Of a stretch of DNA of 64,000 bases, positions 5,247-64,000 are shown in pieces. Position numbers and translations under genes: made by a program. The stretch is from Mesostigma viride. Lineage: Eukaryota > Streptophyta > Mesostigmatophyceae > Mesostigmatales > Mesostigmataceae. Numbering within the stretch: the stretch's first letter is position 1; every line of letters begins with the position of its first letter. The stretch covers positions 310,001-374,000 of the forward strand of contig RPFO01000819.1 in assembly GCA_009746045.1 (NCBI GenBank), in the 5' to 3' direction. The notes under the pieces are model-generated. The model searched no databases. It was not told the DNA's origin and saw nothing but the letters and a program-made list of their open reading frames with translations.

Positions 5247-6500
5247 CACTTCGGTGCGCACTTCCTACGGGACCACGCCACCATGCCCTTTACAGAACCT
5301 TGGGTGTGTGGCAGGGCTGCGTGCTGTCGCCCTACCTGTTCATGATCGTTGTCGAATACGTAATGATTCAGGCGCGCAAGCGATTTGCCCGCATCGTGGG
5401 TAGGGCCACCAGGGGTGCAGGTCGACAACCGTTTCTGGCATAGCGGGGCGGAAACGGAGATTCGGCTGGCGGACATTATCTATGCAGATGACACGTACCA
5501 CGTCCGGCTCTTCAAGAGCACTGAGCCGACGTGCAGACGTGGCTTGACTGCCTGGCAATAGAGGCCCGTGCAGTGGGCCGGCTTGAGGTCAGCAAGAAGA
5601 CAGAGGCTTTGGCGATTGGGCTCACTCAGCCACCGCCACCGCCCCTCTATCTCCTAGCTGGACGGCTCGATCTCGAGTCCTGTATCGGGACCGCGTCAAG
5701 TTGCTGGCCGGGCAGCCTCCTCCCCACTGCTGCGAGGCCGATGCGGACCACCGTATCTCTCTCGCCTGGCACGCTTTACGCCATGCAATACCGGGCCCTG
5801 TGGCGCAGGCCCTTGGGCAAGATAGAGAAACAGGACCTGTTTAAGGTCGTGGTCCTTCCTGTTCTTACGTACGGGGCCGAGACGTGGACCCAGTCAAAGC
5901 TGACCTAGCTAGCCAGAAAGCTGGACGGCGCGGTCACCAACATGCTGCGATCCATCTTCCCGGAAGTTGTTTGGCCGCTGTCCTGAGGGATTCTTCCGTG
6001 TAGGATATGCTGCTCATGTTCGCAATGAGGACCTGTACCTCGGCATGCCATATATCACAAGCACCATTAAGCAGCGTCGCCCGTGCAGCTAGTAGGGCAC
6101 TTAGCTCGCACCAACCAGGTAGATACCTCACGTGGCCCCCCCGCGGGACTGCGCCCAGCTCAGCCTGGCCAGCACCTCCTTACGTGGGCCGGGCCCCGCG
6201 ATGCTCGACGCCGCAAGGCCCGCACCTTCAAAGAACAGCTAGTAGAGGATATGGGGGGCCTAGGCCTCTCCGTGATTTGGACGAAGATTCATGATGGACA
6301 AGGCCAAGTGGGCCCAGGTCATAGAGGACAACGAACCCCCCCCCGTGGGGAAGCGCCCGCGTTTACAAACACGCGCCGGGAAGCACGCCAGACAGAGTCC
6401 CATCGAGTAGAAAGCTTAGACTAGAGTTGGCTTGATGTTGTACATAGATTAGACCGGTGGTTGTCTCCTTGAGATTAGACCGGTAGGACAGTGTGCGTCC
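5247..6500 (+). pseudogene. LINE-A copy 1: reverse transcriptase 3' part, decayed
   Basis: Broken frames give GVWQGCVLSPYLFMIVVEYVM (about 5300-5370), then ADIIYADDT at about 5464-5491, the YADD catalytic box of a non-LTR reverse transcriptase. Next come YGAETW (about 5870), a LDGAVTNMLR region (about 5920) and VGHLARTNQVDTS (about 6100), the usual C-terminal block of RTE-like LINE polymerases. Frameshifts and a stop (for example at 5906) disable it. Its 5' part is cut by the CACTA element. It shows the empty sites for two insertions found in copy 2: a single TTAA at 6067-6070 and another at 7620-7623. The clade is suggested, not proven. Confidence 0.8.
6446..6483 (+). mobile_element. 14-bp family E stub with 12-bp target-site duplication
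   Basis: TGGTTGTCTCCTTG (6458-6471) is flanked on both sides by AGATTAGACCGG (6446-6457 and 6472-6483). LINE-A copy 2 (about 14249) and the inverted tail at 10033-10044 have that 12-mer only once and no insert, so this is an insertion relative to both paralogues. The 14 bases equal the 3' end of family E. Confidence 0.85.
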
Positions 6501-7614
6501 CCATCCATCCATCCATCCATCCATCCATCCATCCATCCATCCATCCATCCATCCATCCATCCATCCATCCATCCATCCATCCATCCATCCATCCATCCAT
6601 CCATCCATCCATCCATCCATCCATCCATCCATCCATCCATCCATCCATCCATCCATCCATCCATCCATCCATCCATCCATCCATCCATCCATCCATCCAT
6701 CCATCCATCCATCCATCCATCCATCCATCCATCCATCCATCCATCCATCCATCCATCCATCCATCCATCCATCCATCCATCCATCCATCCATCCATCCAT
6801 CCATCCATCCATCCATCCATCCATCCATCCATCCATCCATCCATCCATCCATCCATCCATCCATCCATCCATCCATCCATCCATCCATCCATCCATCCAT
6901 CCATCCATCCATCCATCCATCCATCCATCCATCCATCCATCCATCCATCCATCCATCCATCCATCCATCCATCCATCCATCCATCCATCCATCCATCCAT
7001 CCATCCATCCATCCATCCATCCATCCATCCATCCATCCATCCATCCATCCATCCATCCATCCATCCATCCATCCATCCATCCATCCATCCATCCATCCAT
7101 CCATCCATCCATCCATCCATCCATCCATCCATCCATCCATCCATCCATCCATCCATCCATCCATCCATCCATCCATCCATCCATCCATCCATCCCCATCC
7201 ATCCATCCATCCATCCATCCATCCATCCATCCATCCATCCATCCATCCATCCATCCATCCATCCATCCATCCATCCATCCATCCATCCATCCATCCATCC
7301 ATCCATCCATCCATCCATCCATCCATCCATCCATCCATCCATCCATCCATCCATCCATCCATCCATCCATCCATCCATCCATCCATCCATCCATCCATCC
7401 ATCCATCCATCCATCCATCCATCCATCCATCCATCCATCCATCCATCCATCCATCCATCCATCCATCCATCCATCCATCCATCCATCCATCCATCCATCC
7501 ATCCATCCATCCATCCATCCATCCATCCATCCATCCATCCATCCATCCATCCATCCATCCATCCATCCATCCATCCATCCATCCATCCATCCATCCATCC
7601 ATCCATCCATCCAT
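6501..7614 (+). repeat. (CATC)n microsatellite, about 1.1 kb
   Basis: About 278 uninterrupted tetranucleotide units with a single irregularity (ATCCCC at 7191-7196). It is the 3' microsatellite of LINE-A; copy 2 has only about six units at 14278-14303. Open frames through it (HPSI or WMDG repeats) are artefacts. Confidence 0.95.
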
Positions 7615-7616
7615 CA

Positions 7617-10122: not shown

Positions 10123-10215
10123 TCTCAGGGCTATGTGCTACATATCAAGGAGAGGCTACATATGGTTGTCTCCTTGACATATACTCCCAACGGAGTTATG
10201 CTCCTAATTAATCGA
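10123..10215 (+). mobile_element. Family C 3' fragment carrying two nested stubs
   Basis: Without the inserts it would read GGGCTATGTGCTACATATACTCCC, as in the intact ends at 9951 and 22484. GCTACATAT occurs at 10137-10145 and 10155-10163 around a 9-bp insert CAAGGAGAG (10146-10154). ACATAT at 10158-10163 and 10177-10182 flanks a second insert, GGTTGTCTCCTTG (10164-10176), in the opposite orientation. Confidence 0.75.
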
Positions 10216-10875: not shown

Positions 10876-11258
10876 CAAGGAGACAACCAGCGCAGGCCAG
10901 AAATCGGGAGAATCCGGACCATGGTAGCTCGAGCCTGCCGTTATCTTGTCCGCGTGTTCGAGTCGTTCAGGATGATGAAGATGAATGGTGATGGAAATGT
11001 GTATCCTTGTGCATTGAAATTATGGCTGGCTTACGTGTAGAGCGACTAGATGACCTAGACGGTGGGGCCGGAAACAGCATGCTTGATCAGGGCGTGTGTT
11101 TTGAGCCTAACTGGCCGGGAGTGTCTAGTGGTGAGCACCATTGCTGCGATCGCCGCTCTCCCACCATTTACGAGGAAATACCCGCAAATGGAGAACCACT
11201 GAAAAGGTCTAGCTAGTCAGTCATCACGTTAGCCATGCCATGATTCCAAACGCCCAAG
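10876..11258 (-). mobile_element. Family E short retroelement, copy 1
   Basis: About 383 bp, sense strand minus, ending ...CTGGTTGTCTCCTTG at 10876. It aligns along its length with copies at 21961-22877, 27641-28022 and 43898-44094. A conserved 69-codon frame on the antisense strand is a shadow of the repeat and not a gene. No reverse transcriptase and no clear pol III A/B boxes were seen, so it is either a SINE-like element or the 3' end of a larger LINE. Confidence 0.75.
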
Positions 11259-11387
11259 ATCTGCACACATTAGCATATCACCGCTGGTCTGCCTGGCATC
11301 TACCCGCAAGCGTCCCTCACATTAAAGCTCACGTCGGAGGATACTCATTGCAAGTACCTCGATCTTAACATTACCCTAGCTGTATGA

Positions 11388-20047: not shown

Positions 20048-20289
20048 TTTCGGTACCGGCGGGAATTTTTTGGCGCGAAATAATTCCGGTGTGTCCGGAC
20101 CCCTTAATTAACATTACCCATAACAAGAAGGGCTGGCGTACGGCTGTCTATGATAGGCGCAAGGATCCTAAATACCAGCAAATTCCTTTTATTCGTTACC
20201 CCGATATTCACAGTCTCAGGACTTTCCCACACAGCAAAATATGGTGTTGTTCTTAGTCAGTTACATCGTTTTTCCCGTCTTTGTTCTTA

Positions 20290-21590
20290 TTGTGTCGATT
20301 TCATCATGACGTGTATGATCGAGGGGTCGACCACTTCGGTGCGCACTCAACACGGCATTACCCCGCCCTGCCCACTGCAGACCGGCGTCTGGCAGGGTTG
20401 CGTCCTGTCGCCGTACCTGTTTATTATTGTAGTGGATTATGCTATGCGCCAGGCACGTGCTCGCTTTGCTAGCATTGCAGGCCGTGCCCCTGGCCTAGCG
20501 ATCACGAACGAGCTTGGGGAAGGGGGGCCGACTAACAAGCAGAATTTACTAGCTGACCTCATTTACGCCGACGACATCACGCTCATCGAGAAGCCGGAGT
20601 CTGCCCAACTTTGGCTGGACTGGGCCTGGCGCTCGAGGCTCGGGCGGTTGGTCTAGAAATCAGCCCCAAAACGGAGGCCCTGGCCCTCGCCATGGCAGGG
20701 CCCCCACCCACACTCCGCCTCTTAGACGATGCCGAGGTCAACTACCCTCCTTCAGGCCGCTTCAAGCTGGCAGCTCGGCAGTTGGCTTCCCGACTGCGAG
20801 GACGACATGACGACACGGATCGGCATGGCGTGGGCGCACCTCCATGACCACCGCCGCTGGTGGAGCAACCCCGCCCTACCCCGGATCGTCAAGCGTGACC
20901 TCTTCAAGGTCGTCATTCTGACGATCCTGACCTACGGCGCCGAGACGTGGACACTGATGGCAGCACTGAGGAGCTGGAGCAACGACTCGACGGCGCCGTC
21001 ACCAAGATGCTGCGCATTGAAGGCCCTTAACATCCCCTTTGGCTTGCACATTAGTAATGAGGATTTGTACGCTGATTTGCCCTATGTTTCCCACATTATT
21101 AGGCACAGGCGCCTGGGCCTAGCCGGGCACCTGGCCCGCACAGATCAGGTAGATACATCAGATAGACTAGCTGGCACCAAGCCCGCCCAGCCTGGGCGAT
21201 ATGTCCTCACCTGGCGTGCCCCCGGCCGCGCGCGGCAGGGCCGCCACCCGTGGACTTTTCGTGATAGACTCGGCATGGACATGTGCTACACTAGACGTGA
21301 CGGGCTCACCCCCGGGCAGCCTCCTGGTTTGTCTGTAATATGGAGGCAGATGGTGCGCAAGGATAGATGGCAAGTAGTGATGAAGGAGACCACCCCCAAG
21401 CCTGCGGGGGGCTCCGCGTGTGACCAAGTGTATGGCATTCATAGCGATTCGGGCCGCGGTGCCCACACCCCTGTAACTAGGACCTAGATAGCTTATACCA
21501 TCCATTCCATCCCATGTTCCGCTCCCACTGAGGACTTATGCTCACGTGACGCAGTCACGTGTCTATTAATTAATTAATTAATCACGACGC
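20290..21590 (+). pseudogene. LINE-B copy 1: reverse transcriptase remnant with hairpin/TTAA tail
   Basis: GVWQGCVLSPYLFIIVVDYAMRQARARF (about 20390-20465) and LADLIYADDITLIEKPES (about 20548-20602) carry palm motifs B and C; the YADD box is intact. After a frameshift follow AETW (about 20940), LHISNEDLYADLPYVSHIIRHRRLGLAGHLARTDQVDTS (about 21048-21160) and a C-terminus ending near 21487. The 3' end is GGACTTATGCTCACGTGACG, CAGTCACGTG and TATTAATTAATTAATTAAT. About 65% protein similarity to LINE-A is my estimate by eye. The 5' part is absent. Confidence 0.8.
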
Positions 21591-21960
21591 TTGTTGAACT
21601 CTTGCATTGTTTGTTGGTCAAAGACTATGACCGAGACATTATGCTCCGTCAAGTCCGGTGTTTTTTGCAACGTCACCCACATCTGTTAGGTGCTGCCCCT
21701 TGGCACAAGCTCTGCAAACAGGTCGTGGACCGGCTGGATCGCGCAGTATCTCCGCACATCTGAACCCTGTGGTGCCAGATCTCAAGGAGACAACCAGCCA
21801 GATCTCCTTTGCGGCCGCCGGTTCCGAGCCTGGAACTGGATTCGTTGTTCACATCGTCGCGTCGCTGCAGCAACACGATGTTTTCTGGCATACGCGGGCT
21901 TTTGGTTCCCGCCGCACATTTGAAAGTGCTATCCTCCGGATTTTTGCCTATGCAGTTTAG
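21591..21960. other. Unassigned 370 bp holding a family E stub
   Basis: No gene recognised. It may be additional 5' sequence of the family E copy that follows, which is longer than the others. The stub is at 21783-21796. Confidence 0.3.
21774..21805 (-). mobile_element. 14-bp family E stub with 9-bp target-site duplication
   Basis: CAAGGAGACAACCA (21783-21796) lies exactly between two copies of GCCAGATCT (21774-21782 and 21797-21805). It is the same 14 bases, in opposite orientation, as the stub at 6458. Confidence 0.85.
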
Positions 21961-22877
21961 TTGGACGTTTGGAAACATGGCATGGCTAACGTAATGACTG
22001 ACTGCCGGTCTACTGGAAGGGGGCGGACATCTACGTCGCCCACAAGCCCTGGCAGGCGACCCCTGCCGCCCCCGCCACCCCAGCCACCCCAGCCTAGGGA
22101 ATATATAGCAGTAGTGTAGACTAGAAAGCTTAGTGATGTGGCCATGTATGCCTACGTGATAGGCCCACACCAGCCCTTGCAATAGCCGTAGCAATTTCGA
22201 GTCATGCTTTGCCCATGCAGGGAGTTACTCCCTGCTGAGAGGCCATGTGTACCCTAGCTATAGCCTAGCCACATACCTTCCACCCCATATGTCATGCAGG
22301 CCTTCTCTAGAGGCCCTCTCCTCAAGCCCCCCCTGGGTGCCTGTGCTTGTTTAGGAGGCATGAACCATCATGGAGGTGCAGGTGCACCTAGTGCACCCAG
22401 AGCAGGTGATAGTCGTACATCCTACACCTGCAGGTTGTCGCCCTGATTGTATTACAAACCCATAGATGCCCCTTTCTCAGGGCTATGTGTTACATATGCT
22501 CCCCACGGAGCTATGATTTTAATTAATTAATTAATTAATGACTGACTAGCTAGACCTTTTCAGTGGTTTCCCATTTGCGGGTATTTCCTCGTAAATGGTG
22601 GGAGAGCGATCACAGCAATTGTGCTTACCCCTAGACACTCCCAGTGGCTCGAAGCACACGCCCTGATCAAGCAAGCTGTTTCCGGCCCCACCGTCTAGGT
22701 CATCTAGTCGCTCTAAACGTAAGCCAGCCATCATTTCAATGCACAAGGCTACACATTTCCATCACCATTCATATTCATCATCCTGACCGACTCGAACACG
22801 CGGACAAGATAACGGCAGGCTCGAGCTGCCATGGTCCGGATTCTCCCGATTTCTGGCCTGCGCTGGTTGTCTCCTTG
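21961..22877 (+). mobile_element. Family E copy 2, split by a family C insertion
   Basis: Segments 21961-22003 and 22548-22877 together align with copies 1 and 3 on the reverse strand. The sense strand is plus here, ending CTGGTTGTCTCCTTG at 22877. The interrupting piece is described separately. Confidence 0.75.
22004..22535 (+). mobile_element. Family C retroelement, 5'-truncated, with TAATGACTGACT duplication
   Basis: The insert begins inside the end of ORF1 (VYWKGADIYVAHKPWQ), continues through the structured 3' UTR and ends in TTAATTAATTAATTAAT. TAATGACTGACT stands on both sides (21992-22003 and 22536-22547; the first two bases could belong to the tail). Family E copies elsewhere show the uninterrupted target. 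This is a textbook 5'-truncated target-primed insertion and defines the true 3' end of family C. Confidence 0.85.
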
Positions 22878-26200: not shown

Positions 26201-29200
26201 AGGGGTCATGTGCCTACGGGGGCATGTGCCTATGGGGGCATGTGCCTCTAGCTGTCCCTGGGCCAACATTATCGCATGCCAACCCCTTTTTGGGTCCCTT
26301 ACCCTGGCACTTGGGGGAGACACCGGGCACCTGGGCCACCTTGGCCGGTGGGCACACTGGTGATGAGCGCAGCAAAGGATGCCACACGAAGGAGGAGAAG
26401 AAATAGCAGATACAGTGTCTCAAGGTGTCAGCACCAAGCAAGTTGAAGCGGGCACACTGGCACTATGACGTGGGCAAATGACAGGGCAATAAGAAGGCGG
26501 TAGGGTCGAGAAGAAGAGGGTAGAAGAAGCAGGCAGACAAACAAAAACGGCAGCAGGCGCACAGTCGTTGTGAAGTCATCATTTTTACGAGTAGGGGCAA
26601 AAGCACGACCTGACTCCTGTGCGCGACATCACAGACAGGATCTACATCATTACAGACAAGATACGCAGGGTAGGCTCGGGCGTGCAGCGTAGATGACGCC
26701 CCCCTTTGTGGCTCATGGACTCCCGAGGCCACCCACATGCACCCTTTCCCGTCCACACCCGCCAGATGCAACTTGATGATCCGTATGCAAGTAAAAACGA
26801 GATCAAGAGCTGCGGTACAGACAGGACCTCAAAAGTGGGCAAAGCCAATGGCAGGACCTGGGGGAAGGACGAAGCAGGGGGGGAGGAAAGAATGGAGAAA
26901 GAATTGAGGAAGTAATGGAGTTAACTGCGACAACGGTTTCCTTCCTTGAAGGACATGATCCAGAATTGATTCCTCTACTTGAAGCAGCTGTCACAAGCGC
27001 AACATCTCAGCGGTGAGGCATATCATGCCCAACGGTTGAACAGTGGATATGCCTTGTCTTGCCATTCGTGGCGACTACCCTCCACCTCTCATGCCTCAAA
27101 ATCAGGCACACATAGACAAGAGGGATATACCTGCCAGTGCTCCGCTGCCATCCACTATCCATCCCGAGCCCCCACCAACTTCCTCCCCTCCAAGTGCCCA
27201 CCCCATCCATTCCCCCCCCAAACTATCCCACTGCCATCCATCCCACCACCATCCATCCCACCACCACCAAGCGCCCCCCCACCGTAAAGTGCCCCCCCCC
27301 AAAAAAAGTCCCCCACGCAGAAGCTTCACAGGGCACCCCTCCCTTTGCACTTGAAAATTGGATTTGCAAAAGTAGGCTGGTGAAGTAGGTTCGTTAAGTG
27401 GGCTGGTGAAGTATGCTGGTGAAGTCGGCTGGTGAAGCAGGCTGGTGAAGAGGGCTGGTGAAGTGGGCTGGTGAAGTAGGTTCGTAAAGTGGGCTAGCAA
27501 AACGGTAGTAGGACGGCAGAACCCTACCCCAGTTGATGGCCAAGGCGCATGGTGACCTGACCATGTCATGAGAGGAGGGCACAGGCTTGTCATGAGAAAA
27601 GACTGGTATGTCTGGCATGACGAATTGGAATCCGATACATCAAGGAGACAAGCAGTGCAGGCCAGAAATCGGGAGAATCCGGACCATGGTAGCTCGAGCC
27701 TGCCGTTATCTTGTCCGCGTTTTCGAGTCGTTCAGGATGATGAATATGAATGGTGATGGAAATGTGTAGCCTTGTGCATTGAAATTATGGCTGGCTTACG
27801 TTTAGAGCGACTAGATGACCTAGACGGTGGGGCTGAAAACAGCTTGCTTGATCAGGGCGTGTGTTTCGAGCCTAACTGGCCGGGAGTGTCCAGTGGTGAG
27901 CACAATTGCTGCGATCGCTCTCCCACCATTTACGAGGAAATACCCGCAAATGGAAAACCACTGAAAAGGTCTAGCTAGTCAGTCATTACGTTAGCCATGC
28001 CATGTTTCCAAACGTCCAAGAACCGATACATGCACACAGACACAAAATAGAAAGATGGGGTCTGAAGGGTTAGGGTCTCAACAATTAGGAGGTGTTTTCC
28101 TACGGTCTGCGCAAACAGGGTCTGCAAAATCAAAGGCAAACAGGGTCTGCCTACTAAGGCAAACAGGGTCTGCCCTTAGTAGGCCTGTCCAAACATCGCT
28201 CACCGACCACGTCATTTTCATTCAAAACAGAGCATTGCATCACCATGCTTTGACACCCCCCTGCTTGACATGTACCCCACTCCCGTCCTCAACCTCGCTC
28301 CCCCCCTCACCTTTCTCCGCCTCCACGCAGATGTGGTTCTTCATCTGATCCAGTGAGCGCAGAGCGCACAGGGCGCGGTGGGCACATGGCACATAGCAGA
28401 GTGGGCACAGGGCACATAGCAGAGTGCGCACATGGCACATAGCAGAGTGGGCACATGGCACATAGCAGAGTGGGCACAGGGCACATAGCAGAGTGGGCAC
28501 AGGGCACATAGCAGAGTGGGCACAGGGCACATAGCAGAGTGGGCACATGGCACATAGCAGAGTGGGCACAGGGAGGGGACGGATGCAAGAAGATACAGGG
28601 GTCGGATGCAAGAAGATGATCCCACGAGTCAGAAGCAAGCAAGGTTATCGATTGTCAGCTTGTCCAGTTTAAAGCGAGAAGGTGACCACGCGGAACAGCG
28701 GAGCAGATGATGATATGATGATCCCCCTTTGGAAGTGACAGGATGACCACGTGAGCGAGCGGAATACATGCGCGAGGGGCTTGCCTTGCAAAGCGCTGCG
28801 AATAGCAAGCGAGTCGGCCAAGCTGCCGGTCGGCATGTGTGGGGAACTACCATTCCCAAAGCAGCGGTCCCTGCATAGAGTGACTCCCGAGGGGGAGATA
28901 AACGAAAATTCCTGCTGGGGGAGAATGGAGATAAATAAAAATTCCTGCTGGGGGAGAATGGAGATAAATAAAAATTCCTGCTGGGGGAGGAAAAAAACAA
29001 TTCTGCACAATTTCTGTTGGGGGAGAAAAAAGACATTTCAAGGGTGGTTGGAATCCCAATTCTAGTTGCGCCTGTCCTGTCTCTCACCCTCCCCTTGCTG
29101 GCTGGCATGCCGAGACTCCCTACCCTGTGATGCTTCCAACAGGGGCACAGGAGCTTTATTGCCAAACCTGTTCCCATTATGCATGCTGAACATTCACCAA

Positions 29201-32618: not shown

Positions 32619-45611
<12,993 letters not shown>

Positions 45612-52608: not shown

Positions 52609-53149
52609 CTGACCTTGACACTAATCGCACAAACAGCCACAATTTTGCAAGCAAGAAGACATGGCTACCTCGGCATTTCATGAAATGTACTTCGTGAAAT
52701 GCATTTCGTGAAATGTACTAAGGAACGTGATTGGCCGGCGTTCGCTCGCCAAATCTCGCAAAATGTACTAAGGCACGTGATTGGTCCCGCAAAATGTACT
52801 AAGGAACGTGATTGGCCGGCGAAGATTCTGTAGGGAATTTTAATTGCAGCAAACAGAATCTTCGCCGGCCAATCACGTTCCTTAGTACATTTTGCGGGAC
52901 CAATCACGTGCCTTAGTACATTTTGCGAGATTTGGCGAGCGAACGCCGGCCAATCACGTTCCTTAGTACATTTCACGAAATGCATTTCACGAAGTACATT
53001 TCATGAAATGCCGAGGTAGCCATGTCTTCTTGCTTGCAAAATTGTGGCTGTTTGTGCGATTAGTGTCAAGGTCAGGTGCACATTGAGCTATCCGGACTAG
53101 TGGCCGACATGGCGGTCGAAACGGAAGGTGTGCTATGGCTTTGCTGGGA
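52535..53149. repeat. 615-bp inverted repeat: 297-bp arms, 21-bp spacer
   Basis: Arms 52535-52831 and 52853-53149 are exact reverse complements wherever I compared them. Positions pair symmetrically around 52842, so no indel separates the arms. The arms include the first codons of the gene at 52608 (so a second copy starts at 53076 on plus), a block of TTTCATGAAATG-type palindromes, and three GTACTAAGGAACGTGATTGG units. Confidence 0.95.
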
Positions 53150-60425: not shown

Positions 60426-61108
60426 ATCCCTCCCAGGCCTGCATGGTGGGCCGGCAGCGATGATGCTGCGTCTCGTAGTTTTGTGACGTAATTAGTTGTA
60501 CCTTGTGCAGCTGGCGTGATCCTTGAATGTCCGCGTGTCAGATTACTATTAATTTCTTCAGGGTTCTTCTTCTTTTCGGGGTTTTCCTTTTGTTGCATGC
60601 CAATCTCACCTCCGTAACTTATCATTCTCAATTAATATATATTAAAAAGTATTTATATCAAAGAGACAACATTTATATTTTTATAATATATATATTAAAA
60701 AGTATAATTACTTACATCAGAGTGAATTGTCATATAAATGATGCTGCGCACAGCGCATGCGTTGAACTACCAAAAAAGTGCATGCATGAAAATAGTACCA
60801 CCATACATTTAATTCTGCAATAGCTAGCGTAGATCCCATCGTTTACTACATTATGAAACGCCCGGCCAGTGATCTGAAAAGGCCTCTGTTATAGTTTTAA
60901 CTGGATTCAATCCCTTCACTACTCTGGCCCGCAGTACAAGTGGCACTGTACATCATGCCAGCGAGCATTGCCTGCACGAAGGAGGACTGACCCCTGCATA
61001 AAAATCCATGGTCATGTGCTGCGGGATAATCACGTGCAAGAATAAAAAAAACACGCAAATCCTTCGTACAGTTCCAATCCATCCTGGGGATGTGCCGGGC
61101 AGCAGCCC
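60426..61108. other. AT-rich spacer, 3' flank of the metallopeptidase gene
   Basis: Contains a family E-type stub (60659-60670). No gene. Confidence 0.5.
60651..60678 (-). mobile_element. 12-bp family E-like stub with 8-bp duplication
   Basis: CAAAGAGACAAC (one mismatch to the family E end) between ATTTATAT at 60651-60658 and 60671-60678. The site is AT-rich, so chance is somewhat more likely here than elsewhere. Confidence 0.65.
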
Positions 61109-64000
61109 TCACGATTTACACAGCGGGACAACCTCGCGCACGAACTCCGACGGCTGCCGCATCTGCACCAATATCTCCGCCAGCGCCTTCCCGGCCGGCT
61201 CGTCCTCCAGATCGCAGCTGTCCAGGATCTTGATAAATGTGCCCTCAAAGTCCTCCAACACGGCCAGCGCGTGCCGTTCCTCGATCACGAGCTTCTTCTC
61301 CTCGTTGAACCGCAGCATGCCGTGCTTGTGGTACGTGTTGTGCGCGTGGATCGCAAAAGCGATGTACGGCTGCATCGGCTGCGAGTCCCACTTGCTGAAA
61401 TACCGCAGCCCGTCAAGCAGCATGTGGATCAGGTACTTTGTGACGTCCTCCAGCGACAGGGTGCCCTTGCGGTACAGCAGCAGCATCGCGTACGTGGCCG
61501 TCAGCTCCGCGCGAGGCTCCTCCAGCAGCATCTTCGATGCGTCCGAGAAGTGCGGGCCGCGGCTGCGGAGGTGGTAGATCGCGTGGCCAACCTCGTGAGC
61601 GGCCACGTGCCAGACCAGGTGGTCGATCGCATCAGGCTGGTAGCGGTCCAGCACCGAGGTCTCCCCGTCGGCAAACAGCTGCCGCACCTTGTTCTTGATC
61701 TGCGTTCCAGTGGGAGCATCCATGAGCGCATACATGAGCACGTGGGTTGCGTGATGGCTCGCACACAAGCCCATACAGGGGGGTCGCAACGATAGTCTAT
61801 GTAAGACTATATAGATGGTCTAGATAAGACTATATAGATAGACTATATAAGATATGTGCAATTTGATGATGGCACAGGCGCAAGACTATGGGGTGGTAAG
61901 CGATACCACTTACCAAGCCTGTGCAGAGGATGGCAGCTCATAGAAGGTGGTAGCCCGCCGTGGCGCTGTACGCATTTATTTCGTCCTTTATCTAGTTCCT
62001 TATCCATAAGCAAGCGTTGGTTATAATATCGTCCTTTATCTAGTTCCTTATCCATAAGCAAGCGTTGGTTATGATCTCGTCCTTTATGTAGTTCCTTATC
62101 CATAAGCAAGCGTTGGTTATTATTTCGTCCTTTATCTAGTTCCTTATCCATAAGCAAGCGTTGGTTATGCCAGCCCGTGCAACGGCCAGGTGCCAAGCTC
62201 TTTCACTCGTGTTCTCTCTACGACAGGGCTTGGCATCTGCATCATTGTAGGATGTGAGCTGGCAGCATGCACCTTTCCTGGGGGGGAAACCACAAAGTGC
62301 GACAAACTTCAGAGCGCGCTCACAGAAACGCAGTATTTACTAATTGTAGAGGGTGCTCACATGGGCCGGTTGGTTGAATGAAACACGGTCCGGGGCACAT
62401 GGCAGCCGCAGTTGCCTAGAAACAGTCACATCAGATCAAGTAATTTTGTTCGGATTATATTCCTCGCATTACCAGGTTTGCAATGCATGTATCACAAACC
62501 ACAGCTTGGTACTTCACTAATTTATTTGTCACACATAGGTCTCCTACAGGAAGTGCACGTACCAGCTATGCCACTTGGCAGTGTGCGAGAAATCGACAAG
62601 CTCACATTTTTAATGTGGTGCTTGTACAATTGCAAAGCTCACGAATCACCAATGTACTTGTACGTGACAAAGCTCGCTGGTAGAAAGCACGGTCCACCCA
62701 ACGTCCCCTGCTTGATTTAACATTGCAACTGCGCTGCTTGTCTCGTTGATACCACTTGTAATCCCTCCCACCCACCCACCCACCCACCCACCCACCCACC
62801 CACCCACCCACCCACCCACCCACCCACCCACCCACCCACCCACCCACCCACCCACCCACCCACCCACCCACCCACCCACCCACCCACCCACCCACCCACC
62901 CACCCACCCACCCACCCACCCACCCACCCACCCACCCACCCACCCTGCTTACAATCTCGATGCTCTCATATCATACATATCATATCACATATCATGTATC
63001 ACATCGTGTTGATGCCACATTACTCCCCACCAACACACCACCCTTCTCCCCCCCCCCCCCCCCCCCCCCTGCTTACAATCTCAATGCATGCTGTGACCAC
63101 ACCCACCCCTGCCCACCACCACCACACACACACAGCCACCCTACACTCACAATCTCGATGCGTGCCCTCGTCTCATCCACGTTGAAGTAGATCTTGACGC
63201 CCTTGTCCTCCTTGACCGCCTGCCGGTTGGGGACCGACTGCCCCGAGAACGTGAACACGAGCGAGCAGCCCGCGTGGTACGGTGAGTAGTAAATGCCAGC
63301 CATCGTGTGGGACAGCGCCCGCAGGCCCGCGCGGGAGAGTGGGGTTGGGCGGCCTCGGAAAAACTCCTCCAAAAGCCCCTGGATGGAGGCGATGGTCGTG
63401 TTGGCGGCCGCATACTGCTCGTCGAGGAATCGGACCGAGAAGTCCGGGCCTTGCTTCACGCGCAGGGGGTCACTGTAGCCAGTCTCGATGTCTGTTGTTG
63501 TTGGAGGGGGGGGGACGGAATGGTTGGGCGGGGGGGGGACGGAATGGTTGGGCGGGGGGGGGGGAGGTTGTATTGTCGACCGGGGGGGATTGTTGGGGTG
63601 GGTGGGTGGGTCAAATTGTTGGGGCGGGGGGTGAATTGTGTGTGTGGGGGGGTGAGTTGTTGTGTTGCCCTCCCTGCCAACCCCCCAATAACCTTCCCTG
63701 CCACTCCCCCGTTGGCCCTCCCCGCCACCCCCAGCCACCCACGGGACCGCTTACACACTCTCCTTTACCCACAAGAGTCACGCAGAAAACACAACACAAC
63801 GACTGTGGGGGGAGCTCGCCATGCCTTGCTGGGCGTCAACCCTGCTGCATCACGTCACATGCACGATGTGGATGTAGGGCCCTCACCGTGCACAATCTGG
63901 ATCGGCCCCCGGCAGTCCATCCACTTGCGGTCCGTCGCCTCCCACTGCGCCTCCAATTTTTCCACGTCACGCTCCGCCATTGCGTTACGATACTCCTTCA
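61109..64000 (-). CDS. HEXXH zinc metallopeptidase, 3' part (open to right edge)
   Basis: Supported exons (minus): 64000-63887 (KEYRNAMAERDVEKLEAQWE..., phase 1 donor), 63491-63151 (DIETGYSDPLRVKQGPDFSV..., 113 codons, phase 0) and a last exon from about 61750 to the stop at 61109. The last exon has WHVAAHEVGHAIYHL (HEXXH at 61597-61583) and, about 20 residues on, LLEEPRAELTATYA. HEXXH followed by an E-E-x-R-A-E motif recalls the M49 (dipeptidyl-peptidase III) family and its plant/bacterial relatives, but spacing is shorter. I hold only 'gluzincin-like peptidase' as secure. The phase between the second and last exon does not match directly, so a small exon between 61790 and 63150 is missing from my model. 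Confidence 0.75.
61979..62168 (+). repeat. 49-bp tandem repeat, four copies
   Basis: TCGTCCTTTATCTAGTTCCT, TATCCATAAGCAAGCGTTGG, TTAT.. repeated, copies 95% alike by eye. It lies in an intron of the metallopeptidase gene. Confidence 0.9.
62766..62944 (+). repeat. (CCCA)n microsatellite in the metallopeptidase intron
   Basis: About 45 perfect units. It ends at a duplicate of the exon end described at 62945. Confidence 0.95.
62945..63096 (-). repeat. Two duplicates of a metallopeptidase exon end with splice donor
   Basis: The true exon end is GCATCGAGATT/GTGAGT (63162-63146 on minus). GCATTGAGATT/GTAAGC (about 63087-63071) and GCATCGAGATT/GTAAGC (about 62963-62947) lie in the intron, both with usable donors, followed by a poly-G and the (GGGT)n array respectively. 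Confidence 0.8.

Follow-up and report, generated by a model that had tools for sequence, protein, structure and literature searches.

Penelope-like elements (PLEs) are described as having a common ancestor with telomerase reverse transcriptase (RT), and endonuclease-deficient PLEs exist (PMC3846280). For an anole PLE, in vitro work found cleavage at AT-rich DNA and initiation of reverse transcription internal to the RNA (PMC11167929). Among truncated human LINE-1 insertions, an excerpt of PMC2912911 gives microhomology at nearly 80% of 5′ junctions and extra nucleotides at 14.6%. What happens at the start of target-primed reverse transcription is difficult to observe in living cells, since failed attempts usually leave no recognisable trace.

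The window analysed here, the whole 64,000-nucleotide stretch of Mesostigma viride DNA, contains insertions of only the last few bases of a repeat, family E, bounded by target-site duplications. In these stubs, failed attempts can apparently be read: the fixed 3′ end and the defined duplications would make them a genome-wide record of enzyme progress, so that sequence alone could show where a PLE starts, which targets it chooses, the lengths at which it aborts and how the 5′ side is sealed.

Minimal insertions of a repeat 3′ end

The short family E insertions of the window, with their duplications, are as follows.

21783–21796, minus strand: 14-nt stub of the family E 3′ end, reading CAAGGAGACAACCA (sense TGGTTGTCTCCTTG); empty in six paralogous loci
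21774–21782, minus strand: target-site duplication of the 21783 stub, copy 1, GCCAGATCT
21797–21805, minus strand: target-site duplication of the 21783 stub, copy 2, GCCAGATCT
6459–6471, plus strand: 13-nt stub GGTTGTCTCCTTG in the 3′ end of a LINE-A copy; 14 nt counting the shared T at 6458
6446–6458, plus strand: target-site duplication of the 6458 stub, copy 1, AGATTAGACCGGT
6472–6484, plus strand: target-site duplication of the 6458 stub, copy 2
10164–10176, plus strand: 13-nt stub in a LINE-B end, with the duplication ACATAT at 10158–10163 and 10177–10182
10146–10154, minus strand: 9-nt insert made up of 8 nt from the E end and one additional base, adjoining the 10164 stub on the opposite strand
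10137–10145 and 10155–10163: duplication of the 10146 insert, GCTACATAT
60659–60670, minus strand: probable 12-nt stub with one mismatch, GTTGTCTCTTTG
60651–60658 and 60671–60678: duplication of the 60659 stub, ATTTATAT; AT-rich context, less certain
43536–43549, minus strand: exact 14-mer without a clean duplication, possibly an old stub
36833–36846, plus strand: 14-mer with one mismatch and without a clean duplication, possibly an old stub

The stub at 21783 is flanked exactly, on both sides, by GCCAGATCT, and positions 6458–6471 are the reverse complement of its 14-mer, flanked by AGATTAGACCGG (13 bp counting the shared T). Both arrangements had been put forward in the original prediction and both were borne out, with empty paralogues. 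The window holds the 14-mer 12 times (seven exact copies, two with one mismatch and three with two), against a mean of 0.50 over 100 shuffles; given the sites at 43536 and 36833, not every such 14-mer is a proven stub. A scan of the window for an insert between direct repeats, blind to the 14-mer, returned 273 matches, mostly tandem-repeat DNA as judged by eye, and these included the sites at 6446, 10137 and 21774.

Longer copies of family E are also present.

27641–28022, minus strand: 382-nt 5′-truncated family E copy with a 9-bp duplication, ATGTATCGG (sense)
43898–44094, minus strand: 197-nt 5′-truncated family E copy with a 14-bp duplication, ATACTGGCACTGTT (sense)
10876–11268, minus strand: family E copy of about 393 nt; exact duplication not found
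about 20108–22877, plus strand: long copy of family E that includes the tail of the RT open reading frame (ORF) and has the 21783 stub inside

The lengths and duplications predicted for the 382-nt and 197-nt copies were confirmed; no duplication was found for the long copies at 10876 and 22864. The copy at 20108–22877 is interrupted by LINE-A (about 20308–21577, inferred) and by LINE-B (22004–22535). This LINE-B, within the long E copy, has a 12-bp duplication of its own, TAATGACTGACT, at 21992–22003 and 22536–22547.

Elsewhere in the window, about 1.1 kb of CCAT repeats (6504–7615) directly follows a LINE-A 3′ end, and two mirror-image clusters of short repeats with AGTACATTTCA/TGAAATGTACT motifs face each other at 52681–52995. 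An ORF on the minus strand (61109–61819) has 71 protein-database homologues at E 0.001, four of them with PF25448.

Empty sites in paralogous DNA

Alignment of paralogues showed each window insertion to be a clean gain. The site of the 21783 stub is empty in six aligned loci (L024, L026, L036, L037, L038 and L041), of which L036 and L037 form a single segmental duplication and L038 occurs twice in the alignment. The 6458 site is empty in one paralogue within the window and in L045 and L049, the latter with a few base differences there. LINE-B paralogues in the window, L045, L050 and L007 lack both inserts of the 10137–10182 region.

Abundance across the assembly

Of the check proposed in the original prediction, exact copies of the 14-mer were counted across assembly G000 (439,911,974 bases in 2,243 contigs), and flanking repeats were tested against shuffles at sampled sites. 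The exact 14-mer occurs 7,971 times, compared with two occurrences of the reversed control. Matches to the element ending at exactly 13, 14 and 15 nt number 546, 925 and 621 (controls 8, 2 and 0); many sites of the 15-nt class have A before them, which is read as GCGC decay in long copies.

Duplications were sought within 3 nt of the 5′ junction, the null being obtained by shuffling downstream flanks among sites. For 54 short sites, defined by an element match of 13–17 nt and by being unlike a long copy in ungapped comparison (a few decayed long copies remain among them), an exact duplication of at least 6 nt was present in 20, against 1.02 on average and at most 5 in 200 shuffles. At a threshold of at least 8 nt the figure was 12 of 54 (shuffled mean 0.37, maximum 3). 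Twenty sites matching exactly 14 nt and twenty matching exactly 13 nt had been fetched, and 15 of these 40 have an exact, abutting duplication of at least 6 nt, which upholds the claim that the last few bases of family E alone were retro-inserted with target-site duplications. Extrapolation of this fraction gives about 550 proven-type stubs in the 13- and 14-nt classes alone.

Shorter matches were sampled as well. For matches of exactly 7 nt followed by ATA, a duplication of at least 7 nt was found in 5 of 21 sites (null mean 0.41, maximum 2); by eye, one other repeat family accounts for six of the 21 and a second one for two, and a further three are long copies that have decayed. The genome-wide 7-nt count (1,094, reversed control 86) is not used as a stub number because it lies close to the Markov expectation of 842. 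An unrelated dispersed repeat with GAGCAAGCTCCTTGATATC inflates the counts of 7-nt E ends (L091, L093, L097, L100, L103 and L105). The by-length duplication test included matches at 4–5 nt that are tandem repeats.

Among copies that had not been selected for shortness, the proportion with a duplication was lower: exact duplications of at least 6 nt flank 3 of 26 copies of 14–23 nt, 7 of 19 of 24–52 nt and 10 of the 47 longer ones with their 5′ end in hand. By eye, some unselected short copies have a duplication with one or two mismatches (L014, L039 and L146) and many have none. In a 280-kb scan, an exact duplication of at least 7 nt was found at 0 of 13 sites matching 18–25 nt. When the same 280 kb was searched for inserts between direct repeats, the commonest 6-nt end of inserts of 5–20 nt was TCCTTG (seven duplications at five loci), followed by CACACA (5); at 20–60 nt TCCTTG and ACAAAG were level (5 each), and above 60 nt other repeats led. 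Inserts ending in a family E suffix accounted for 34 matches, many of them tandem repeats, compared with 9.4 on average and at most 26 when ends were shuffled.

Evenly spaced E ends lie at C25:571996–572220 and C113:3038825–3039160 of G000, with periods of 35 and 40 bp; the stubs there seem to have become part of tandem arrays.

Two length classes

Insert lengths at the 21 sites with an exact duplication of at least 8 nt were 5, 7, 7, 7, 8, 8, 9, 10, 10, 11, 12, 12, 13, 13, 13, 13, 14, 15, 15, 29 and 46 nt, a set that over-represents 7 and 12–15 nt, such sites having been fetched on purpose, and that was searched only near the exact element match length after tandem-repeat duplications had been filtered out. 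Lengths of copies containing the 14-mer came from an alignment with the L037 copy that covered 98 of the first 100 places on contig C1: 17 measured 14–16 nt, 9 measured 17–23, 6 measured 24–33, 8 measured 34–39, 5 measured 40–52 and 7 measured 53–136, with 46 beyond, six of which were cut by the fetched stretch. Grouped, 45 copies are of 52 nt or less (26 of 14–23 nt and 19 of 24–52 nt), 7 of 53–136 nt and 46 longer. Density per nucleotide is highest at 14–16 nt, is about a hundredfold lower at 76–136 nt and increases once more beyond that.

The products thus form two classes, one very short and one from 137 nt to over 900, and do not have a single length of 14 nt. The original prediction was open to refutation by a smooth distribution without an excess at 9–14 nt. 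The observed one has an excess of very short products and two humps, with density highest at 14–16 nt among copies of at least 14 nt, but no single spike. A near-constant length of 14, taken to suggest a defined primer-length or small-RNA intermediate, was not recovered; proven inserts measure 5–15 nt and copies continue through 16–57 nt. The apparent length arose because the search used a 14-mer, and a dedicated 14-nt intermediate is not needed. Scaling 26 of 98 to the 7,971 copies gives roughly 2,100 of 14–23 nt, an estimate from one contig to which inserts below 14 nt would be extra. It is this ultra-short class, in size and in share, that is unusual.

A few additional bases are present in several longer E copies (L044:2237, L037:6410, L026, L029 and L022), roughly 9 or 14 nt from the 3′ end, as if synthesis had paused and then restarted.

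A shared ATA target

A duplication that starts with A directly after CCTTG, as originally proposed, proved a strong rule rather than an absolute one: the next base is A at 56 of 60 short-match sites (a set containing a few decayed long copies) and at all 43 longer-match sites. The triplet is usually ATA (39/60 and 32/43, respectively). Since ATA is common to short and longer matches, they share one target, as expected if one reaction starts both. On the 5′ side, 15 of the 21 inserts proven by their duplications have microhomology of at least 1 nt, a figure inflated because several sites were picked by exact match length, and four have an extra base.

Tail-to-tail E ends occur in L051 and L026, separated by ATAT or 21 bp, as if the duplicated ATA target had been struck again on the other strand. 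Head-to-head stubs, such as would result if both ends of a cut were primed, are rare, with six places genome-wide and none in the control; one of this kind, with mismatches, lies in L054.

The reverse transcriptase of family E

In L038, family E runs upstream into a 419-aa ORF, located about 1,835 to 578 nt before the 3′ end, whose relatives align with the RT core (QxIGIPMGTNCA and YIDD). Searches of Pfam and of PDB sequences with the family E RT gave weak results; the LINE-A RT of the same window has a Pfam RVT_1 match slightly below the curated cut-off. Protein P0072, 86% identical to the 419-aa ORF over 92%, was modelled with a pLDDT of 87.7, and PDB matches 1–10 in Foldseek are all telomerases (E 2.5e-07 to 5.3e-05). 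TM-scores to these are moderate, at 0.33–0.56, and the RTs of retrons and group II introns come next; R2 appears only at rank 47 among the 50 PDB matches listed, a position that does not point to a non-LTR-type RT. On this modelled telomerase-like fold, family E is classed as the 3′ end of a Penelope-like element and not of a LINE.

Other hallmarks were sought in the recovered parts. Target-site duplications and 5′ truncation, as in PLEs, are present, and L034 holds two adjacent E copies in the same orientation, which bears on pseudo-LTRs or partial tandem copies. Pfam gave no match to a GIY-YIG endonuclease in the ORF or in ten RT relatives, the N-terminal part of the element being outside the recovered sequence. 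In L036, L037, L038, L041 and the window, where the relevant part may be absent, no Rfam model reached its gathering score, hammerhead ribozymes included.

Discussion

The stubs probably arise by target-primed reverse transcription that often aborts within the first ~7–50 nt, repair then sealing the product, in many cases at microhomology; this reading is drawn from the sequence patterns described above. An endonuclease, which the element would encode or borrow, would nick the target and leave a primer ending in TAT-3′, as the duplication begins with ATA. The primer would then be extended along the element RNA, starting always at the G of ...CTCCTTG. The RT would stop very often within the first ~7–20 nt and again often by ~50 nt, presumably by early dissociation. 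Once the second strand had been cut about 8–20 nt away, host repair may connect this very short cDNA with the opposite end, frequently through 1–4 nt of microhomology, such end joining at the 5′ junction yielding a stub with a normal duplication. A fixed 3′ end followed by ATA fits either an internal start or pairing of the TAT primer with the RNA. The low share of exact duplications among unselected short copies (3/26), their absence from the 13 sites matching 18–25 nt and the failure to find a GIY-YIG domain in the recovered sequence count against this reading.

The short copies without a duplication would also suit a history in which the stubs are footprints, a longer copy having later been deleted or excised so that only its last bases were left between the duplications. 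The proven stubs, however, keep both duplications intact and abutting, and their common insert end is the 3′ end of the element; a deletion would need to stop exactly at the duplication every time, and we regard this origin as unlikely. The same copies without duplications, together with the microhomology and the few extra bases at some 5′ junctions, could instead reflect short element cDNA captured as filler by end joining at unrelated double-strand breaks. Against such capture stand the constancy of the 3′ end, the position of the duplication immediately behind it in proven cases and the ATA preference that longer copies also show, which indicate one endonuclease-primed reaction, and the fact that direct-repeat inserts of 5–20 nt share the end TCCTTG rather than having random 3′ ends; we consider it quite improbable.

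That 14 is the commonest of the exact match lengths 13, 14 and 15 genome-wide is what a template of fixed length, a small RNA or snap-back primer of about 14 nt, would produce. Yet the lengths of proven inserts and the continuing series of longer copies show no such constancy, and part of the peak is a shared base, as L053, L058, L063, L066 and the 6458 stub match 14 nt with inserts of 12–13 nt; a template of this kind is very unlikely. Chance repeats around a common word hardly merit belief: short duplications can arise in AT-rich DNA, as perhaps at the 60659 site, but flank shuffling gave a mean of 1.0 against 20, control counts were near zero and sites are empty in paralogues. For the stub class as a whole, the shuffles and empty sites refute a chance origin.

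A stable 3′ hairpin was not supported as the cause of stopping, the predicted fold being no better than those of shuffles (z −0.64; 47 of 200 as good). In a second fold, of 40 copies, several predicted pairs were broken in many copies and, by eye, no compensating changes were seen.

We further offer, as a tentative proposal to which we give somewhat less than an even chance, that abortive initiation is the normal outcome for this element: a distributive start phase of the RT would release products of ~7–20 nt, each abort would be sealed, and about half or more of all insertions would be cryptic stubs. If so, these would be invisible to repeat annotation while scattering duplicated words of 8–20 bp through the genome. 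Counts may underestimate how many copies of such elements exist and how often they insert, and among short indels bounded by repeats some would be retrotransposition scars.

Titles and abstract openings in the open-access literature yielded no reports of such stubs. Among described PLEs, Penelope of D. virilis, the anole Poseidon PAc and Pen of Adineta vaga resemble family E in their telomerase-like RT, 5′ truncation, duplications and AT-rich target, and the fixed 3′ start of family E would fit the internal initiation of PAc (PMC11167929). Family E differs from these in that insertions of only the last 5–20 nt are frequent; the main text on PAc (PMC11167929) and passages on A. vaga report none. 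No endonuclease, pLTR or hammerhead ribozyme was found in its recovered parts. Truncated insertions of human LINE-1 share with the stubs a variable 5′ truncation, duplications and 5′-junction microhomology, but the RT is of a different lineage and family E has no poly(A) tail. The products of family E are much shorter than the 5′-truncated insertions of human LINE-1. In the insertion of telomere repeats by telomerase, as presented in an excerpt of PMC2246262, a telomerase-type RT likewise adds a short stretch at a DNA end; telomerase is thought to act there at double-strand breaks, whereas the stubs consist of the 3′ end of an element placed at ATA sites with duplications.
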